Part shown: positions 34,628 through 64,000 of the stretch, piece by piece
Position numbering within the stretch: position 1 is the first letter of the stretch
Layout of the letters: each line of letters begins with the position of its first letter
Assembly (NCBI RefSeq): GCF_000423905.1
Contig: NZ_AUIW01000001.1
Coordinates: 1-64,000 of the forward strand
Direction: 5' to 3'
From: Thermus antranikianii DSM 12462
GTDB lineage: Bacteria; Deinococcota; Deinococci; Deinococcales; Thermaceae
DNA: 64,000 bases
The notes under the pieces: generated by a model
Databases searched by the model: none
What the model saw: only the letters and a program-made list of their open reading frames with translations
What the model was told of the DNA's origin: nothing
Made by a program: the position numbers and the translations under genes

Positions 34628-34633
34628 GGAAGG

Positions 34634-34729
34634 GACAGGCTAGGGGTGCCCCAATGGAGGGGCTGAGAGCTGGGTTTCTCCCAGCAACCCTTAGAACCTG
34701 ATCCGGGTAATGCCGGCGGAGGGAAGCCT
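34634..34729 (+). ncRNA. TPP (THI-box) riboswitch
   Basis: The conserved thi-box core is plainly present: AGGGGTGCC at the 5' side, GGCTGAGAG (34661-34669), a variable stem-loop (CTGGGTTTCTCCCAG), then ACCCTTAGAACCTGATC-CGGGTAATGCCGGCGGAGGGAA in the expected order (34687-34725). It precedes thiE-thiS-thiG-thiO-thiC. When TPP is bound, thiamine synthesis should be turned down. The expression platform is described separately. Confidence 0.97.
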
Positions 34730-34759
34730 ATGCGGAAGAATCCCCTTACAAACCGACCT

Positions 34760-60175: not shown

Positions 60176-60199
60176 CCTGGGTAGGACACCCAAAACTTA

Positions 60200-60390
60200 G
60201 GGTGTCCCGGCCGCGATGCCAGGCCGACAGGCCTGGACGCCAGCAGGCGGTGGGGGAAGTCCGGTGAAAGTCCGGCGCTGTCCCGCAACGGTAACCGGCT
60301 CTGTCCGGAAGCCCGAGTACCCGCTTCGCGGTCCTACCCCGTAGCCCTCGAGGCAAGGGTGAAGGTGGTGATGCCTGTGGGACCTTAGAT
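60200..60390 (+). ncRNA. Cobalamin riboswitch
   Basis: The B12-box layout is clear: GGGGAAGTCCGGTGAAAGTC beginning at about 60252, CGCTGTCCCGCAACGGTAAC (60278 onward), and the GAAGCCCGAGTACCCGC element (60308-60325). ACAGGC (60227-60232) can pair with GCCTGT (60373-60378) as the closing stem. Both ends are approximate. Downstream are a thioesterase gene, metE and nrdB, so bound B12 should shut off B12-independent enzymes. Confidence 0.93.
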
Positions 60391-60394
60391 TCCT

Positions 60395-60468
60395 AACCCC
60401 CCAGAACCCGGTGGCCCAAGATCCTTGGGCCAGACAACCTTAGGCAAGATCTTGCCCAGCAGGGGGTT
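60395..60468 (+). promoter_or_regulatory. Probable expression platform of the B12 riboswitch
   Basis: AACCCCC (60395-60401) can pair with AGGGGGTT (60461-60468), enclosing two perfect hairpins: TGGCCCAAG/CTTGGGCCA (60412-60432) and the self-complementary GGCAAGATCTTGCC (60443-60456). The layered structure suits transcription attenuation, although there is no T run. The next start codon lies about 70 bases on. Confidence 0.5.
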
Positions 60469-60537
60469 ATTCCCTTGGGCAGGTAGAAGGGATGGCCTAG
60501 CTTTTACGGGCCCGAAGGCGGCCCTCGGAGGTCCGTG

Positions 60538-60918
60538 GTGAAGGAAACGCGCATGGTCTACCCAGTTTTCCCTGGGGAAACCAACCATTACGGGACCCTT
60601 TTTGGCGGCACCGCCATGGCCTGGATGGACCAGGCAGCCTTCGTGGCTGCAACCCGCCACGCCAGGCGCAAGGTGGTGACGGTGCACTCGGATGCGGTGG
60701 ACTTCAAGCGCCCCGTACCCCTGGGCTCCATTGTGGAGCTGGTGGCCCGGGTGGTGGGGGTGGGCCGCACCTCCATGCGGGTCGAGGTGGAGATGTGGGT
60801 GGAACCCATTGAGCCAGGTAAGGAAGCCTATTTGGCGGCTAAGGGCGGATTCGTGCTGGTAGCGGTGGATGGGGAGGGGCGCCCTGTTCCCGTGCCACCT
60901 CTGGAGGGGAAGGAATGA
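60538..60918 (+). CDS. Hotdog acyl-CoA thioesterase (YciA/BFIT type)
   Basis: Protein of 126 residues with the acyl-CoA thioesterase motif NHYGTLFGGTAMAWMDQAAF, whose Asp is catalytic in relatives, and VTVHSDAVDFKRPVPLGSIVEL. Tandem GTG codons at 60535 and 60538 follow GGAGG. The second gives the better spacing (6 bases). It hydrolyses acyl-CoA esters. Its place as first gene under a B12 riboswitch is unexpected: it overlaps metE by four bases and so must be co-expressed with it. A link to propionyl/methylmalonyl-CoA handling without B12 is speculation. Confidence 0.85.
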   Translation: MKETRMVYPVFPGETNHYGTLFGGTAMAWMDQAAFVAATRHARRKVVTVHSDAVDFKRPVPLGSIVELVARVVGVGRTSMRVEVEMWVEPIEPGKEAYLAAKGGFVLVAVDGEGRPVPVPPLEGKE

Positions 60919-63116
60919 TCCGTACGCTGGCTTACGGTCTTCCACGGCTCGGTCCTAACCGGGAATACAAAAGGCTTCTGGAGGGCTTCTGGTCAGGTTC
61001 CATATCGCGGGAGGATTTTCTCGAGGGCCTGGAGGCTCTCGAGGCCCTAAGGCTCGCCACCTACCGGGAACAGGTGGACCTTTACCCGGCGGGCGAGCTG
61101 AGCCTTTATGACCCCATGCTGGACTTGGCGGTGGCCTTGGGCCTTTACCCCCTGGATCCCGGGGACCTGGAGGGCTACTACGCCCTGGCCCGGGGCAAGG
61201 AAGCCCTGCCCCTCCGAAAGTGGTTCGGCACCAACTACCACTACTTGGTTCCACGCTTGCCAGAGAGGCCCCGGTATACCCCCCAGCCGGGCTGGGGCCT
61301 ACCCTATCCCGTAGGCCGGAACCAGGCTTTGAAGGAGGGGCTCCCGACCCTGCTCGGACCCTACACCCTTCTGCGCATGGCGCAAAACCCCCCGGATCGC
61401 CTGGGAGCACACCTGGAAGCCCTAACGGAAGCTTACGTGGAGCTGGTCCAGCCGGTCAGGGGAAGAACCGTGCTCCTCCAAGAACCCGCCTTGGGGTTGG
61501 ATGGGGCAGAGGAGGACCTCCCCCACCTTCTGGCCTTCTACGGTACCTTAGCGCAGGAGGTTTCCTTGGTCCTCCTGCCCTACTACCTACCCCCCGCCCC
61601 AAGGGTGGTTGAGGCCCTGGCCACCCTTCCCCTTCGCGGTTTAGGGGTAATCCTGGCCCCAGGGGTGTCCTTACCCCAAGTACCCAAGGGCACAGCCCTG
61701 GTGGTGGAGGTGGTGGAGGGTCTTGGGGTGTGGCGCACCAACCTCCTTGCCCTTGGGGAGGTTCTATCGCCTCTGGCAGAGACCGGGCAGGAGGTGTGGG
61801 TGGCTCCCAAAGCACCCTTGTACCACCTGCCGTGGGAAGTAGCGGAACCTTTGCCCGGAGCCTTGGCAGGCCGGTTGGCCTTTGCCCGAGAGCGACTTAA
61901 GGAGCTTGCCCTGTTGAAGGCCATCCTCCTAACGCGGACCACCTCCCAGGAATCACCGCCCTCGCCTGAGGAGGAAACTGCCTTCGCACAAGCCCGGGCC
62001 TGGTACACCCCACCCCCGCCTTGGGACTTCCGCCCCTCCCCAGTGCCGGCCTCGAGGCCACCCAGGGAAGAGCGCTCCAAAGCCCAGCAGAACCTGGCCC
62101 TTCCCCTTTTCCCCACCACCACCATAGGAAGCTTCCCCCAGACCAAGGAGCTTCGCGACTTCCGGAAAAGATTGCGCTCCAGGGCTCTTGACCAGACGGC
62201 CTACTGGCTGCACATCCAGGAAGCCATCCGGGCGAACATCCGCCTCCAAGAGGAACTGGGCCTGGACGTTTTGGTCCACGGAGAGCCCGAGCGCAGCGAT
62301 ATGGTGGAGTTTTTCGCGGAGCGTTTAGAAGGCTTCTATCCCACCCAGAAGGGTTTCGTCCTCTCCTACGGGAGCCGCGTCTGGCGCCCACCCATCCTCT
62401 TCGCCCCGCCCCGCCGGAGGGAGCCTTTGGTCCTTAGGGAAACCCTGTTCGCCCAAAGCCTCACCCCTAAACCGGTAAAGGCCATCCTTACGGGACCCAT
62501 CACCCTGGCTGCCTGGAGCTACCTACCCCAGGGGGTGGAGTTCAGAGAAGCGGTAATCGCCCTGGCGGAGGCCCTGCGGGAGGAGGTAAAGGAAGTGGCT
62601 TCCCACGGAATCCGGGTGGTGCAGGTGGACGAGCCGGCGCTTCTGGAGAAGCTCCCTTTGAAGGCAAAGGAGCGCCCTGGGTATTTAGCCCTGGTGGGGG
62701 AGGCCTTCCTGCGGGTAGTGGGGGAGCTTCCGCCGGAGGTCCAGGTGCACCTCCACCTCTGCTACTCCGATTACGCCGCCTTGCGCCCCTTCCTGGAGGT
62801 CATGGACCCGGATGTGGTGAGCCTTGAGGGAGCAAGGCAAGACCCCAGCTTTCTCCAAACCCTCACAGGGCTTTCCCTAGGCCTGGGCCCCGGAGCCTTT
62901 GACGTCCACTCCCCCCTGGAGGTTCCGGCGGAGGAAATCCTTACTCGCCTTCAAGCCTACCTCCGGTACCTGCCTGCGGAAAGGCTATGGGTGAACCCGG
63001 ACTGTGGTCTTAAGACCCGGAAGCCCGAGGAGGCCCTGGCCAACCTCAAGAACATGGTGGAAGCAGCCAAGAGGCTTCGGAAGGCCTTTGGAGGGAGCCA
63101 TGCTCACGGATCCTAG
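60915..63116 (+). CDS. metE: Cobalamin-independent methionine synthase
   Basis: Protein of 733 residues with two homologous halves. The N-terminal half begins LAYGLPRLGPNREYKRLLEGF. The catalytic half starts near LPLFPTTTIGSFPQTKELRDF and holds ILTGPITLAAWSYLPQGV and VQVDEPALLEKLPL. Zinc ligands match those of E. coli MetE: His614 and Cys616 in HLHLCYSD, Glu638 in VSLEGAR and Cys697 in NPDCGLKTRK. It methylates homocysteine from 5-methyltetrahydropteroyl-polyglutamate. Control by the upstream B12 riboswitch is textbook logic, with the B12-dependent MetH presumably encoded elsewhere. Confidence 0.96.
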   Translation: MIRTLAYGLPRLGPNREYKRLLEGFWSGSISREDFLEGLEALEALRLATYREQVDLYPAGELSLYDPMLDLAVALGLYPLDPGDLEGYYALARGKEALPLRKWFGTNYHYLVPRLPERPRYTPQPGWGLPYPVGRNQALKEGLPTLLGPYTLLRMAQNPPDRLGAHLEALTEAYVELVQPVRGRTVLLQEPALGLDGAEEDLPHLLAFYGTLAQEVSLVLLPYYLPPAPRVVEALATLPLRGLGVILAPGVSLPQVPKGTALVVEVVEGLGVWRTNLLALGEVLSPLAETGQEVWVAPKAPLYHLPWEVAEPLPGALAGRLAFARERLKELALLKAILLTRTTSQESPPSPEEETAFAQARAWYTPPPPWDFRPSPVPASRPPREERSKAQQNLALPLFPTTTIGSFPQTKELRDFRKRLRSRALDQTAYWLHIQEAIRANIRLQEELGLDVLVHGEPERSDMVEFFAERLEGFYPTQKGFVLSYGSRVWRPPILFAPPRRREPLVLRETLFAQSLTPKPVKAILTGPITLAAWSYLPQGVEFREAVIALAEALREEVKEVASHGIRVVQVDEPALLEKLPLKAKERPGYLALVGEAFLRVVGELPPEVQVHLHLCYSDYAALRPFLEVMDPDVVSLEGARQDPSFLQTLTGLSLGLGPGAFDVHSPLEVPAEEILTRLQAYLRYLPAERLWVNPDCGLKTRKPEEALANLKNMVEAAKRLRKAFGGSHAHGS

Positions 63117-64000
63117 GCCCCACTACCGTCCCTACGAGTATCCGAGGCTTTTAGCCTACCGGGACGCCATCCGGCACAGCTACTGGCTCCACACGGAGTT
63201 CAGCTATGCGGCAGACGTCCAGGACTACGCCCTGGCGGGTCCTGAGGTGCGCTCGTTGGTGGAGCGCTCCCTTCTTGCTATCTCCCAGGTGGAGCTTTCC
63301 GTGAAGCTCTTCTGGGCCCGAACCTACGAGGTCTTCCCGAAGCCAGAGGTGGCCGAGGTGGGCATGACCTTCGCCGAGAGCGAAGTGCGTCACGCCAACG
63401 CCTACGCCCACCTTTTGGATCTCCTGGCCCTCGAGGACCGCTTTGCCCGGGCCTTGGAGGAGGAGACCGCCTTAAGGGAACGGCACCGCCACTTAACCGA
63501 GGTCCTGGGGTCCGCCTTCCGAGGCGACCTGAGGGGACACGCCCTCGCCCTCCTTCTCTTTTCCGCCTTCACCGAACACGCCTCCCTTTTCTCCCAGTTC
63601 TACGTGCTTATGGCCCTGAACAAGCGCCTTGGGCGCTTCAAGGGGATCTCCAACGCCATCGAGGCCACCAGTAAGGAGGAAAACCTGCACGGCCTCTTTG
63701 GGGTAGAGCTCCTCAGGATCCTTAGGGAAGAGCGGCCGGACCTCTTCGGGCCCTCCTTTACCGAGGAGGCCCTGGATAGGGTAGAGGCCTTCTTTCGCAC
63801 GGAGGAGGCCCTTTTGGAGTGGATCTTCGCCCGGGGGGACACCGAGGCGGTGAGGGGAGAGGAGGTCCTGGAGTTCCTTAAGTGGCGGTACAACCAGGTT
63901 CTTTCCCTCCACGGCCTGCCCGCGCCCTTCCCCGTGCGGAAGGAGTGCCTAAGGGATACGGAGTGGTTTGACCTGGAGCTTTTGGCGGACAAGGAAGTGG
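63100..64000 (+). CDS. nrdB: Class I ribonucleotide reductase beta subunit (R2), 3' end beyond the window
   Basis: Open from the ATG at 63100, inside the last 17 bases of metE behind GGAGGGAGCC, to the window edge: 300 codons without a stop. The ferritin-like R2 ligands are all present: Glu65 (QVELSVKLFW), Glu95 and His98 (AESEVRHANAY), Glu159 (FTEH), Glu194 and His197 (SKEENLHG). Tyr102 sits four residues after His98, where the radical tyrosine of E. coli R2 is. The first ligand is Glu where E. coli has Asp84. It supplies the radical for oxygen-dependent, B12-independent deoxynucleotide synthesis, and nrdA is expected nearby. Confidence 0.9.
   Translation, partial: MLTDPRPHYRPYEYPRLLAYRDAIRHSYWLHTEFSYAADVQDYALAGPEVRSLVERSLLAISQVELSVKLFWARTYEVFPKPEVAEVGMTFAESEVRHANAYAHLLDLLALEDRFARALEEETALRERHRHLTEVLGSAFRGDLRGHALALLLFSAFTEHASLFSQFYVLMALNKRLGRFKGISNAIEATSKEENLHGLFGVELLRILREERPDLFGPSFTEEALDRVEAFFRTEEALLEWIFARGDTEAVRGEEVLEFLKWRYNQVLSLHGLPAPFPVRKECLRDTEWFDLELLADKEV

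Follow-up and report, generated by a model that had tools for sequence, protein, structure and literature searches.

The constant partner of the cobalamin (B12) riboswitch in the Thermaceae is a YciA-like acyl-CoA thioesterase (TE), and metE, which can lie in the same operons, is labile, gained or lost. Such a thioesterase also turns up behind B12 riboswitches in many bacterial phyla, which points to a third backup, so far overlooked, that would free coenzyme A when a B12-dependent pathway stalls. In the window—the whole 64,000-nucleotide stretch of Thermus antranikianii DSM 12462 DNA analysed here—the riboswitch is followed by genes for TE, metE and nrdB, with overlapping reading frames, and nrdA comes just past the end of the window:

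60191..60342, + strand: cobalamin (B12) riboswitch aptamer, above the Rfam RF00174 gathering score; the same site lies ahead of TE-nrdBA in 25 Thermus genomes
60281..60287, + strand: putative L5 loop UCCCGCA, kissing-loop partner, read from the sequence; identical letters in the 28 Thermus leaders compared
60356..60386, + strand: putative P13/L13 hairpin, with L13 UGUGGGA at 60376-60382; placed by complementarity to L5 and by a conserved leader block
60371..60388, + strand: candidate 5-codon upstream ORF, ATG CCT GTG GGA CCT TAG (MPVGP-stop), inside L13/P13
60538..60918, + strand: YciA-like 4HBT hotdog acyl-CoA thioesterase (Pfam 4HBT; start from an alignment of relatives)
60915..63116, + strand: metE, B12-independent methionine synthase (Pfam PF01717 and PF08267, Meth_synt_1/2; PRK05222)
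63100..64000, continuing to contig position 64071, + strand: nrdB, ribonucleotide reductase (RNR) small subunit, class Id-like (Pfam PF00268)
contig 64081-65751, outside the window, + strand: nrdA (TIGR02510, 968 bits)

We think it probable that the riboswitch acts as an OFF switch on a set of proteins that need no B12: an RNR, often MetE, and a thioesterase that frees CoA from stalled propionyl-/methylmalonyl-CoA. Judging by the known riboswitch family, B12 would shut down one transcript that carries this emergency set. When B12 is present the dependent enzymes would serve; when it is short, class Id-like NrdB/NrdA would take over from NrdJ, and MetE from MetH. The third AdoCbl-dependent step would be that of the methylmalonyl-CoA mutase family: as the mutase stalls, TE would relieve the stall by hydrolysing the propionyl-, methylmalonyl- or isobutyryl-CoA that accumulates, and coenzyme A would be set free.

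B12 riboswitches are known to control uptake and synthesis as well as the isozymes that make methionine and deoxynucleotides. The last of these are listed as a regulon class, ‘isozymes of B12-dependent enzymes’ (PMC3766115), and examples have been described in nrdDG of delta-proteobacteria (PMC545781) and metE of P. megaterium (PMC9600662). The window resembles these cases of metE and nrdAB/nrdDG control in that a riboswitch precedes MetE or a B12-free RNR in a genome with MetH or NrdJ, but differs in that both isozymes, and a thioesterase with them, are on one predicted transcript. The sequence-only reading of this DNA had proposed looking for metH and nrdJ in the rest of the genome, and both are there: MetH (TIGR02082, 1196 bits) and NrdJ (TIGR02504, 604 and 523 bits). 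So are two methylmalonyl-CoA mutase-type large subunits, and hence all three B12-dependent counterparts—MetH, NrdJ and acyl-CoA mutase—share the genome with the riboswitch operon.

The thioesterase and its changing neighbours

The core that Thermus keeps constant is riboswitch-TE-nrdB-nrdA, present in 25 genomes, and metE is full length in nine of these operons and a remnant in two. That earlier reading had put the metE-nrd pairing first and treated the thioesterase as an odd extra. The pairing is real, but its emphasis must be reversed, since TE is the constant partner and metE the labile one. Nor can MetE be the reason for TE, an idea we rejected because most Thermus operons are without metE.

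Among 50 Thermaceae genomes, 42 have a TE ortholog, and in every one of the 42 a B12 riboswitch lies upstream in the same operon. The layouts vary—TE-nrdBA, nrdI-nrdE-nrdF-TE, or TE-nrdAB—as does the position of metE, and since TE accompanies at least three RNR types, a bond to any one of them was also rejected. In seven of the eight genomes that have no TE, the nrd riboswitch operon was likewise not seen. The eighth (G033) is the sole Thermaceae genome with riboswitch-nrdIEF but without TE, and it has prpCDB, a pattern (prpCDB in place of TE) that speaks for a link of TE to propionyl-CoA but counts as one event. Against that link, another genome (G037) carries prpD as well as TE; an apparent internal stop in its TE proved to be the natural end of the gene.

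Beyond the Thermaceae, TE lies behind B12 riboswitches in six more groups. There it accompanies MetE, NrdAB or a BtuF-like protein, or stands alone, as in Longimonas, Myxococcus and Melainabacteria. In Alpha- and Betaproteobacteria the riboswitches score 115-131 bits and are ~100-120 bases upstream of TE.

The riboswitch might instead control these operons while TE itself is a general acyl-CoA housekeeping enzyme, kept there by conserved gene order and with no B12-specific role. We regard this as unlikely. Conserved order is hard to reconcile with a riboswitch link that persists through repeated changes of order and partners, or with a lone TE behind the riboswitch in the three groups just named. 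YciA-type enzymes are broad, as a housekeeping role would have it, and no riboswitch was found with the TE-nrdIEF clusters of D. radiodurans and Deinococcus NW-56. The Thermaceae genomes examined also contain a ~45% identical paralog of TE, which could point the same way, but when the tables were matched by hand no Thermaceae paralog was seen near a riboswitch.

The thioesterase and the acyl-CoA mutases

TE matches Pfam 4HBT with an E-value of 2.6e-23 (82.6 bits against a gathering score of 20.6). Alignment with relatives moves its start to the GTG at 60538, with a Shine-Dalgarno GGAGG at 60527. Against the NCBIfam YciA equivalog PRK10694 it scores 71.4 bits and does not reach the cut-off of 162, so YciA specificity cannot be assumed; by sequence it is a YciA-like 4HBT protein that we do not file as YciA. 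The nearest solved structure, 2EIS, is that of T. thermophilus TTHB207, which like YciA belongs to the same 4HBT hotdog family. TTHB207 is encoded on pTT27 of strain HB8, within a riboswitch-TE-nrdBA locus, and is ~86% identical to TE; our literature search found no paper that names it.

The substrate and physiological role of TE are what we infer, and a precedent speaks for them: in P. putida without prpC/prpE, H. influenzae YciA releases propionate in vivo by acting on propionyl-CoA (PMC9399607). A further link to propionyl-CoA comes from two Paracoccus genomes, which have a TE relative at the head of a methylcitrate operon, TE-prpD-prpC-prpB. This placement is one reason to consider it very unlikely that TE serves methionine or RNR metabolism directly, by clearing homocysteine thiolactone when MetH stalls, for example. 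Most loci do place TE next to metE or nrd genes, but most Thermus have TE and nrd without metE, Shinella has TE with metE in a unit separate from nrd, and others have neither. Hotdog thioesterases, moreover, normally use CoA or ACP thioesters.

Relief of a stalled mutase fares better. Of 45 further genomes, all 16 with a riboswitch-linked TE have an AdoCbl-dependent acyl-CoA mutase (PF01642), all 18 that are free of the mutase are without the riboswitch-TE link, and the remaining 11 bear a mutase and a TE with no confirmed riboswitch upstream. Fisher's test gives p 2e-5, which overstates independence, because the mutase-free genomes come mostly from two lineages. A weak riboswitch match (L147, 22 bits) was left out of the linked count, and two loci that seemed linked by coordinates (L158 and L194) were rejected after direct Rfam scans of both showed no riboswitch. 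Within the Deinococci the same comparison is uninformative and was dropped, since mutases are near-universal there (104 of 111 genomes).

More tentative, and a little easier to doubt than to believe, is the general proposal that a dedicated TE under B12 riboswitches across many phyla provides AdoCbl-dependent acyl-CoA mutases with a relief that needs no B12 and so joins MetE and class I RNR as a third arm, with the Thermus riboswitch perhaps using a conserved candidate 5-codon upstream ORF. Among the papers searched we found none that ties a thioesterase to a B12 riboswitch, and none with a matching regulated answer to methylmalonyl-CoA mutase stall when B12 runs out. If the proposal is true, a widespread riboswitch-controlled thioesterase is that answer, a protein of solved structure (TTHB207) acquires a function, and the role can be tested in a genetically tractable thermophile, at a locus on the megaplasmid pTT27. 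A predicted acyl-CoA hydrolase, ‘achX’, may figure in regulon tables of the Rodionov group as a gene that follows B12 elements in some proteobacteria; in that case its regulation had already been seen there, without explanation.

The operon of the window and its leader

The 4-base overlap of TE with metE (TE ends at 60918, metE starts at 60915) and the 17-base overlap of metE with nrdB (ATG at 63100, metE end at 63116) are as first described, and nrdA, which had been expected past 64000, begins after a gap of only 9 bases. A consensus-based scan, weak for Thermus, found no promoter-like site on the + strand of the operon, and from the aptamer to the end of nrdA the only + strand terminator-like site is one within the nrdA coding sequence; the next are ~60-110 bases past its stop. 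No separator was thus found between metE and nrdB, and the earlier claim that both B12-free isozymes sit in one operon under one riboswitch stands. That the aptamer governs the first gene or genes only, with metE and nrdBA transcribed mainly from unrecognised internal promoters and the isozymes not co-switched, is very unlikely. The weakness of the promoter scan speaks for it; the overlapping frames, the 9-base gap and the scans' outcome for terminators and promoters speak against it.

MetE has both of its domains and passes PRK05222 (614.6 bits, cut-off 541); against TIGR01371 it scores 588 bits and does not reach the cut-off of 930. NrdB (Ribonuc_red_sm, E 1.5e-39) has 8dq3, 6sf4, 5olk and 6cwo-q as its best solved relatives, among them the class Id proteins 6sf4, 5olk and 6cwq, and those of NrdA are 6dqx and 6dqw. 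Both subunits are nearest to solved class Id subunits (Mn2, NrdAi/NrdBi), and by sequence the RNR of the operon resembles that class.

The riboswitch, first recognised from the sequence alone, was found by Rfam as well: RF00174 matches 60191-60342 on the + strand with 39.4 bits (gathering 31.5, E 1.8e-6). Because the leader scan found no intrinsic terminator in the expression platform, control would be at translation initiation or by Rho. The Thermus leaders compared have a strongly conserved block, GAAGGUGGUG...GUGGGACC, at the putative P13/L13. The letters of the putative L5 and L13 complement each other in the window, as they do in most of these leaders; in three (L057, L062 and L066) the match is weaker.

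The Thermus riboswitch may act via the candidate upstream ORF, whose ribosome site, an SD-like GAAGG at 60361-60365, would be masked by the B12-bound kissing loop. An ATG-started ORF of five codons (MPVGP, MRMGP or MRMDP) is present in 20 of 28 Thermus leaders, and all three stop codons occur among them. Short ORFs are also found in the leaders of the M. tuberculosis metE and ppe2 B12 riboswitches, where they may couple translation to the switch (PMC11260477); the Thermus candidate differs in lying within the L13/P13 hairpin, far from the first gene.

The operon and its leader

Rfam finds two riboswitches in the whole window, one of the TPP type (34632-34741, 83.9 bits) and one of the cobalamin type, which heads the genes listed here. 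Elsewhere in this Thermus-like genome (2.16 Mb, 33 contigs, with the window as the opening 64 kb of contig C1) just one more B12 riboswitch was found; it precedes an ABC transporter, read as btuFCD, on the same contig (C1:291011-291169).

Features of the riboswitch operon
60191-60342: Cobalamin riboswitch (Rfam)
60371-60388: candidate five-codon ORF, ATG-CCT-GTG-GGA-CCT-TAG (MPVGP-stop), inside the putative L13/P13 hairpin
60538 (GTG) to 60918: TE, a YciA-like 4HBT thioesterase gene, downstream of the aptamer
60915-63116: metE, downstream of TE
63100 to contig position 64071: nrdB, downstream of metE
64081-65751 of the contig, past the window end: nrdA

The sequence-only reading had a single B12-type riboswitch governing overlapping TE, metE and nrdB genes, and the Rfam match and reading frames agree: TE and metE overlap by 4 bases, metE and nrdB by 17, and nrdA, sought downstream of 64000, follows nrdB after a gap of 9 bases. 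Consensus scans of the + strand found no promoter-like site in the operon region and, over the stretch that starts with the aptamer and closes with nrdA, no terminator-like site except one within the nrdA coding sequence; neither kind was found between metE and nrdB, where either might have split the transcript. Two terminator-like sites lie ~60-110 bases past nrdA. The B12-dependent MetH and NrdJ that such control presupposes are encoded in the same genome. NrdJ is represented by two genes: one, of class II, has a 1985-aa frame containing two intein-like interruptions (locus L014, 3715-9672), and a second, NrdJ-like, encodes 586 aa (locus L013, 5527-7287). The genome also encodes two methylmalonyl-CoA mutase-type large subunits.

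The solved structures nearest to NrdB (6SF4, 5OLK, 6CWO-Q) and NrdA (6DQX, 6DQW) are of class Id, a manganese subclass (PMC6754362; PMC8463856). Among solved structures, TE is nearest to TTHB207 of T. thermophilus HB8 (PDB 2EIS); the operon of the matching HB8 gene, on pTT27—riboswitch (32.7 bits), TE, nrdB, nrdA—lacks metE, unlike that of the window. Control of metE and nrd genes by B12 riboswitches is already known (PMC545781; PMC9600662; PMC3766115). No report of a thioesterase in such a regulon was found in the literature searched; an older key regulon paper fell outside that search, so earlier notice is possible.

Aptamer loop L5 (UCCCGCA) can pair with UGUGGGA of the conserved hairpin downstream, as a putative L5-L13 kissing loop. 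An SD-like GAAGG accompanies the short ORF, and of 28 Thermus leaders 20 contain an ATG-started five-codon ORF (16 MPVGP, 3 MRMGP, 1 MRMDP), ending variously in TAG, TAA or TGA. Because the kissing loop may account for part of this conservation, the ORF is only a candidate; like the translated uORFs of M. tuberculosis (PMC11260477), it lies within a B12 riboswitch leader. Scanning the leader turned up no intrinsic terminator, and this favors regulation of translation initiation or Rho-dependent control.

Conservation within the Thermaceae

In 50 Thermaceae genomes, counted by hand from tables, 42 have a TE ortholog, and in all 42 a B12 riboswitch (Cobalamin or AdoCbl-II) lies upstream in the same operon. 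The eight without TE are three Thermus that lack a class-Id-like RNR, four genomes with 1-2 riboswitch matches in which no nrd operon was seen, and one other, G033. The order in Thermus is riboswitch-TE-[metE]-nrdB-nrdA; in Meiothermus, Calidithermus and relatives, where the RNR is class Ib, it is riboswitch-nrdI-nrdE-[metE]-nrdF-[metE]-TE.

MetE occupies three different operon positions and belongs to two lineages (~39% identity). It is complete in 9 of 25 Thermus operons, and remnants persist in those of G046 and G056 (loci L050 and L064). What is left there, after TE and before nrdB, covers residues 1-44 in one case and residues 1-104 and 636-733 in the other, and shows loss of metE from the operon. 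Since metE is labile while TE, riboswitch and RNR are kept, the stable unit, judged by this comparison, combines a B12 riboswitch with a class I RNR and TE, metE being optional. Near-identical riboswitch-TE-nrdB-nrdA copies (97-99% over ~6 kb) occur in several Thermus species (L068, L069, L070, L071, L074), some of them in addition to a divergent copy, and these point to horizontal transfer.

The thioesterase beyond the Thermaceae

Riboswitch-TE-nrdA-nrdB recurs outside the family in G001, G009 and, with a class-Id-like RNR and a riboswitch slightly below cut-off (31.2 bits), G108. Named genomes were also scanned using a TE alignment, and plasmid records added. In Chloroflexota the riboswitch-linked TE is accompanied by metE or by a BtuF-like binding protein. 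Its partners in Rhodothermota/Bacteroidota are nrd genes, sometimes joined by metE, and some loci there have TE by itself. The link also occurs in Myxococcota, Acidobacteriota and Lysobacter (nrdA-nrdB-TE, riboswitch 105-108 bits), and in Myxococcus and one Melainabacterium TE stands alone behind the riboswitch. Among plasmid records, Alpha- and Betaproteobacteria have the linkage too. Shinella WSC3-e has riboswitch-metE-TE, then riboswitch-nrdHIEF, and Azospira riboswitch-TE-nrdA-nrdD. In Sinorhizobium medicae, Shinella sumterensis and Sphingomonas the riboswitch (121-131 bits) lies ~100-120 bases upstream of TE, which adjoins a DUF1852 and methionine synthase pair (an arrangement noted at loci L211, L212 and L214), possibly another B12-independent methionine synthase system. 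D. radiodurans pMP1 (L208) and Deinococcus NW-56 (L207) carry TE-nrdI-nrdE-nrdF-thioredoxin, with no B12 riboswitch detectable at either locus.

Chance is an unlikely source of the association. In 45 genomes (~220 Mb) there are about 110 riboswitch matches. At that density, by hand estimate, a match on the same strand would be expected in the 5 kb upstream of ~0.1% of random genes; direct Rfam scans confirmed riboswitch-linked TE in 16 of the 45. In a TE tree of 123 columns, with few forks resolved and parts made unsure by long branches, linked proteins fall mainly into two sets, separate from an unlinked marine gamma/delta clade. Two sequences, filed as Candidatus Bipolaricaulota (L130) and Comamonas (L176), resemble Thermus and Myxococcus sequence and are likely contamination or mislabelling.

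A possible role for the thioesterase

Besides those that MetE and class I RNR answer, the third common B12-dependent enzyme is the AdoCbl-dependent acyl-CoA mutase family. Mutase co-occurrence, a Paracoccus prp operon, the gene content of G033 and the activities of YciA lead us to favor a reading in which TE would release CoA from stalled propionyl/methylmalonyl-type CoA esters. Within the 45-genome set, a PF01642 mutase is present in 16 of 16 genomes with confirmed riboswitch-linked TE (in Lysobacter, only an IcmF-like one), and TE is unlinked in 18 of 18 mutase-free genomes (Fisher p 2e-5, too optimistic because lineages are non-independent). Two apparent linkages, L158 and L194, proved to be coordinate coincidences and were taken out of this table; a weak match, L147, was left out.

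In Pseudomonas putida without prpC and prpE, H. influenzae YciA cleaves propionyl-CoA to give free propionate (PMC9399607), and YciA also acts on methylsuccinyl-CoA and mesaconyl-CoA (PMC9529712). Full-length PrpD occurs among the Thermaceae only in G033, which has a prpC-prpD-prpB methylcitrate locus (L203, 6099-9539), and in G037. Within the family, G033 alone has a riboswitch-nrdIEF operon while lacking a TE ortholog; as G037 has both PrpD and TE, this pattern counts as one suggestive event. On two Paracoccus plasmids, a TE relative is the first gene of a prpD-prpC-prpB operon.
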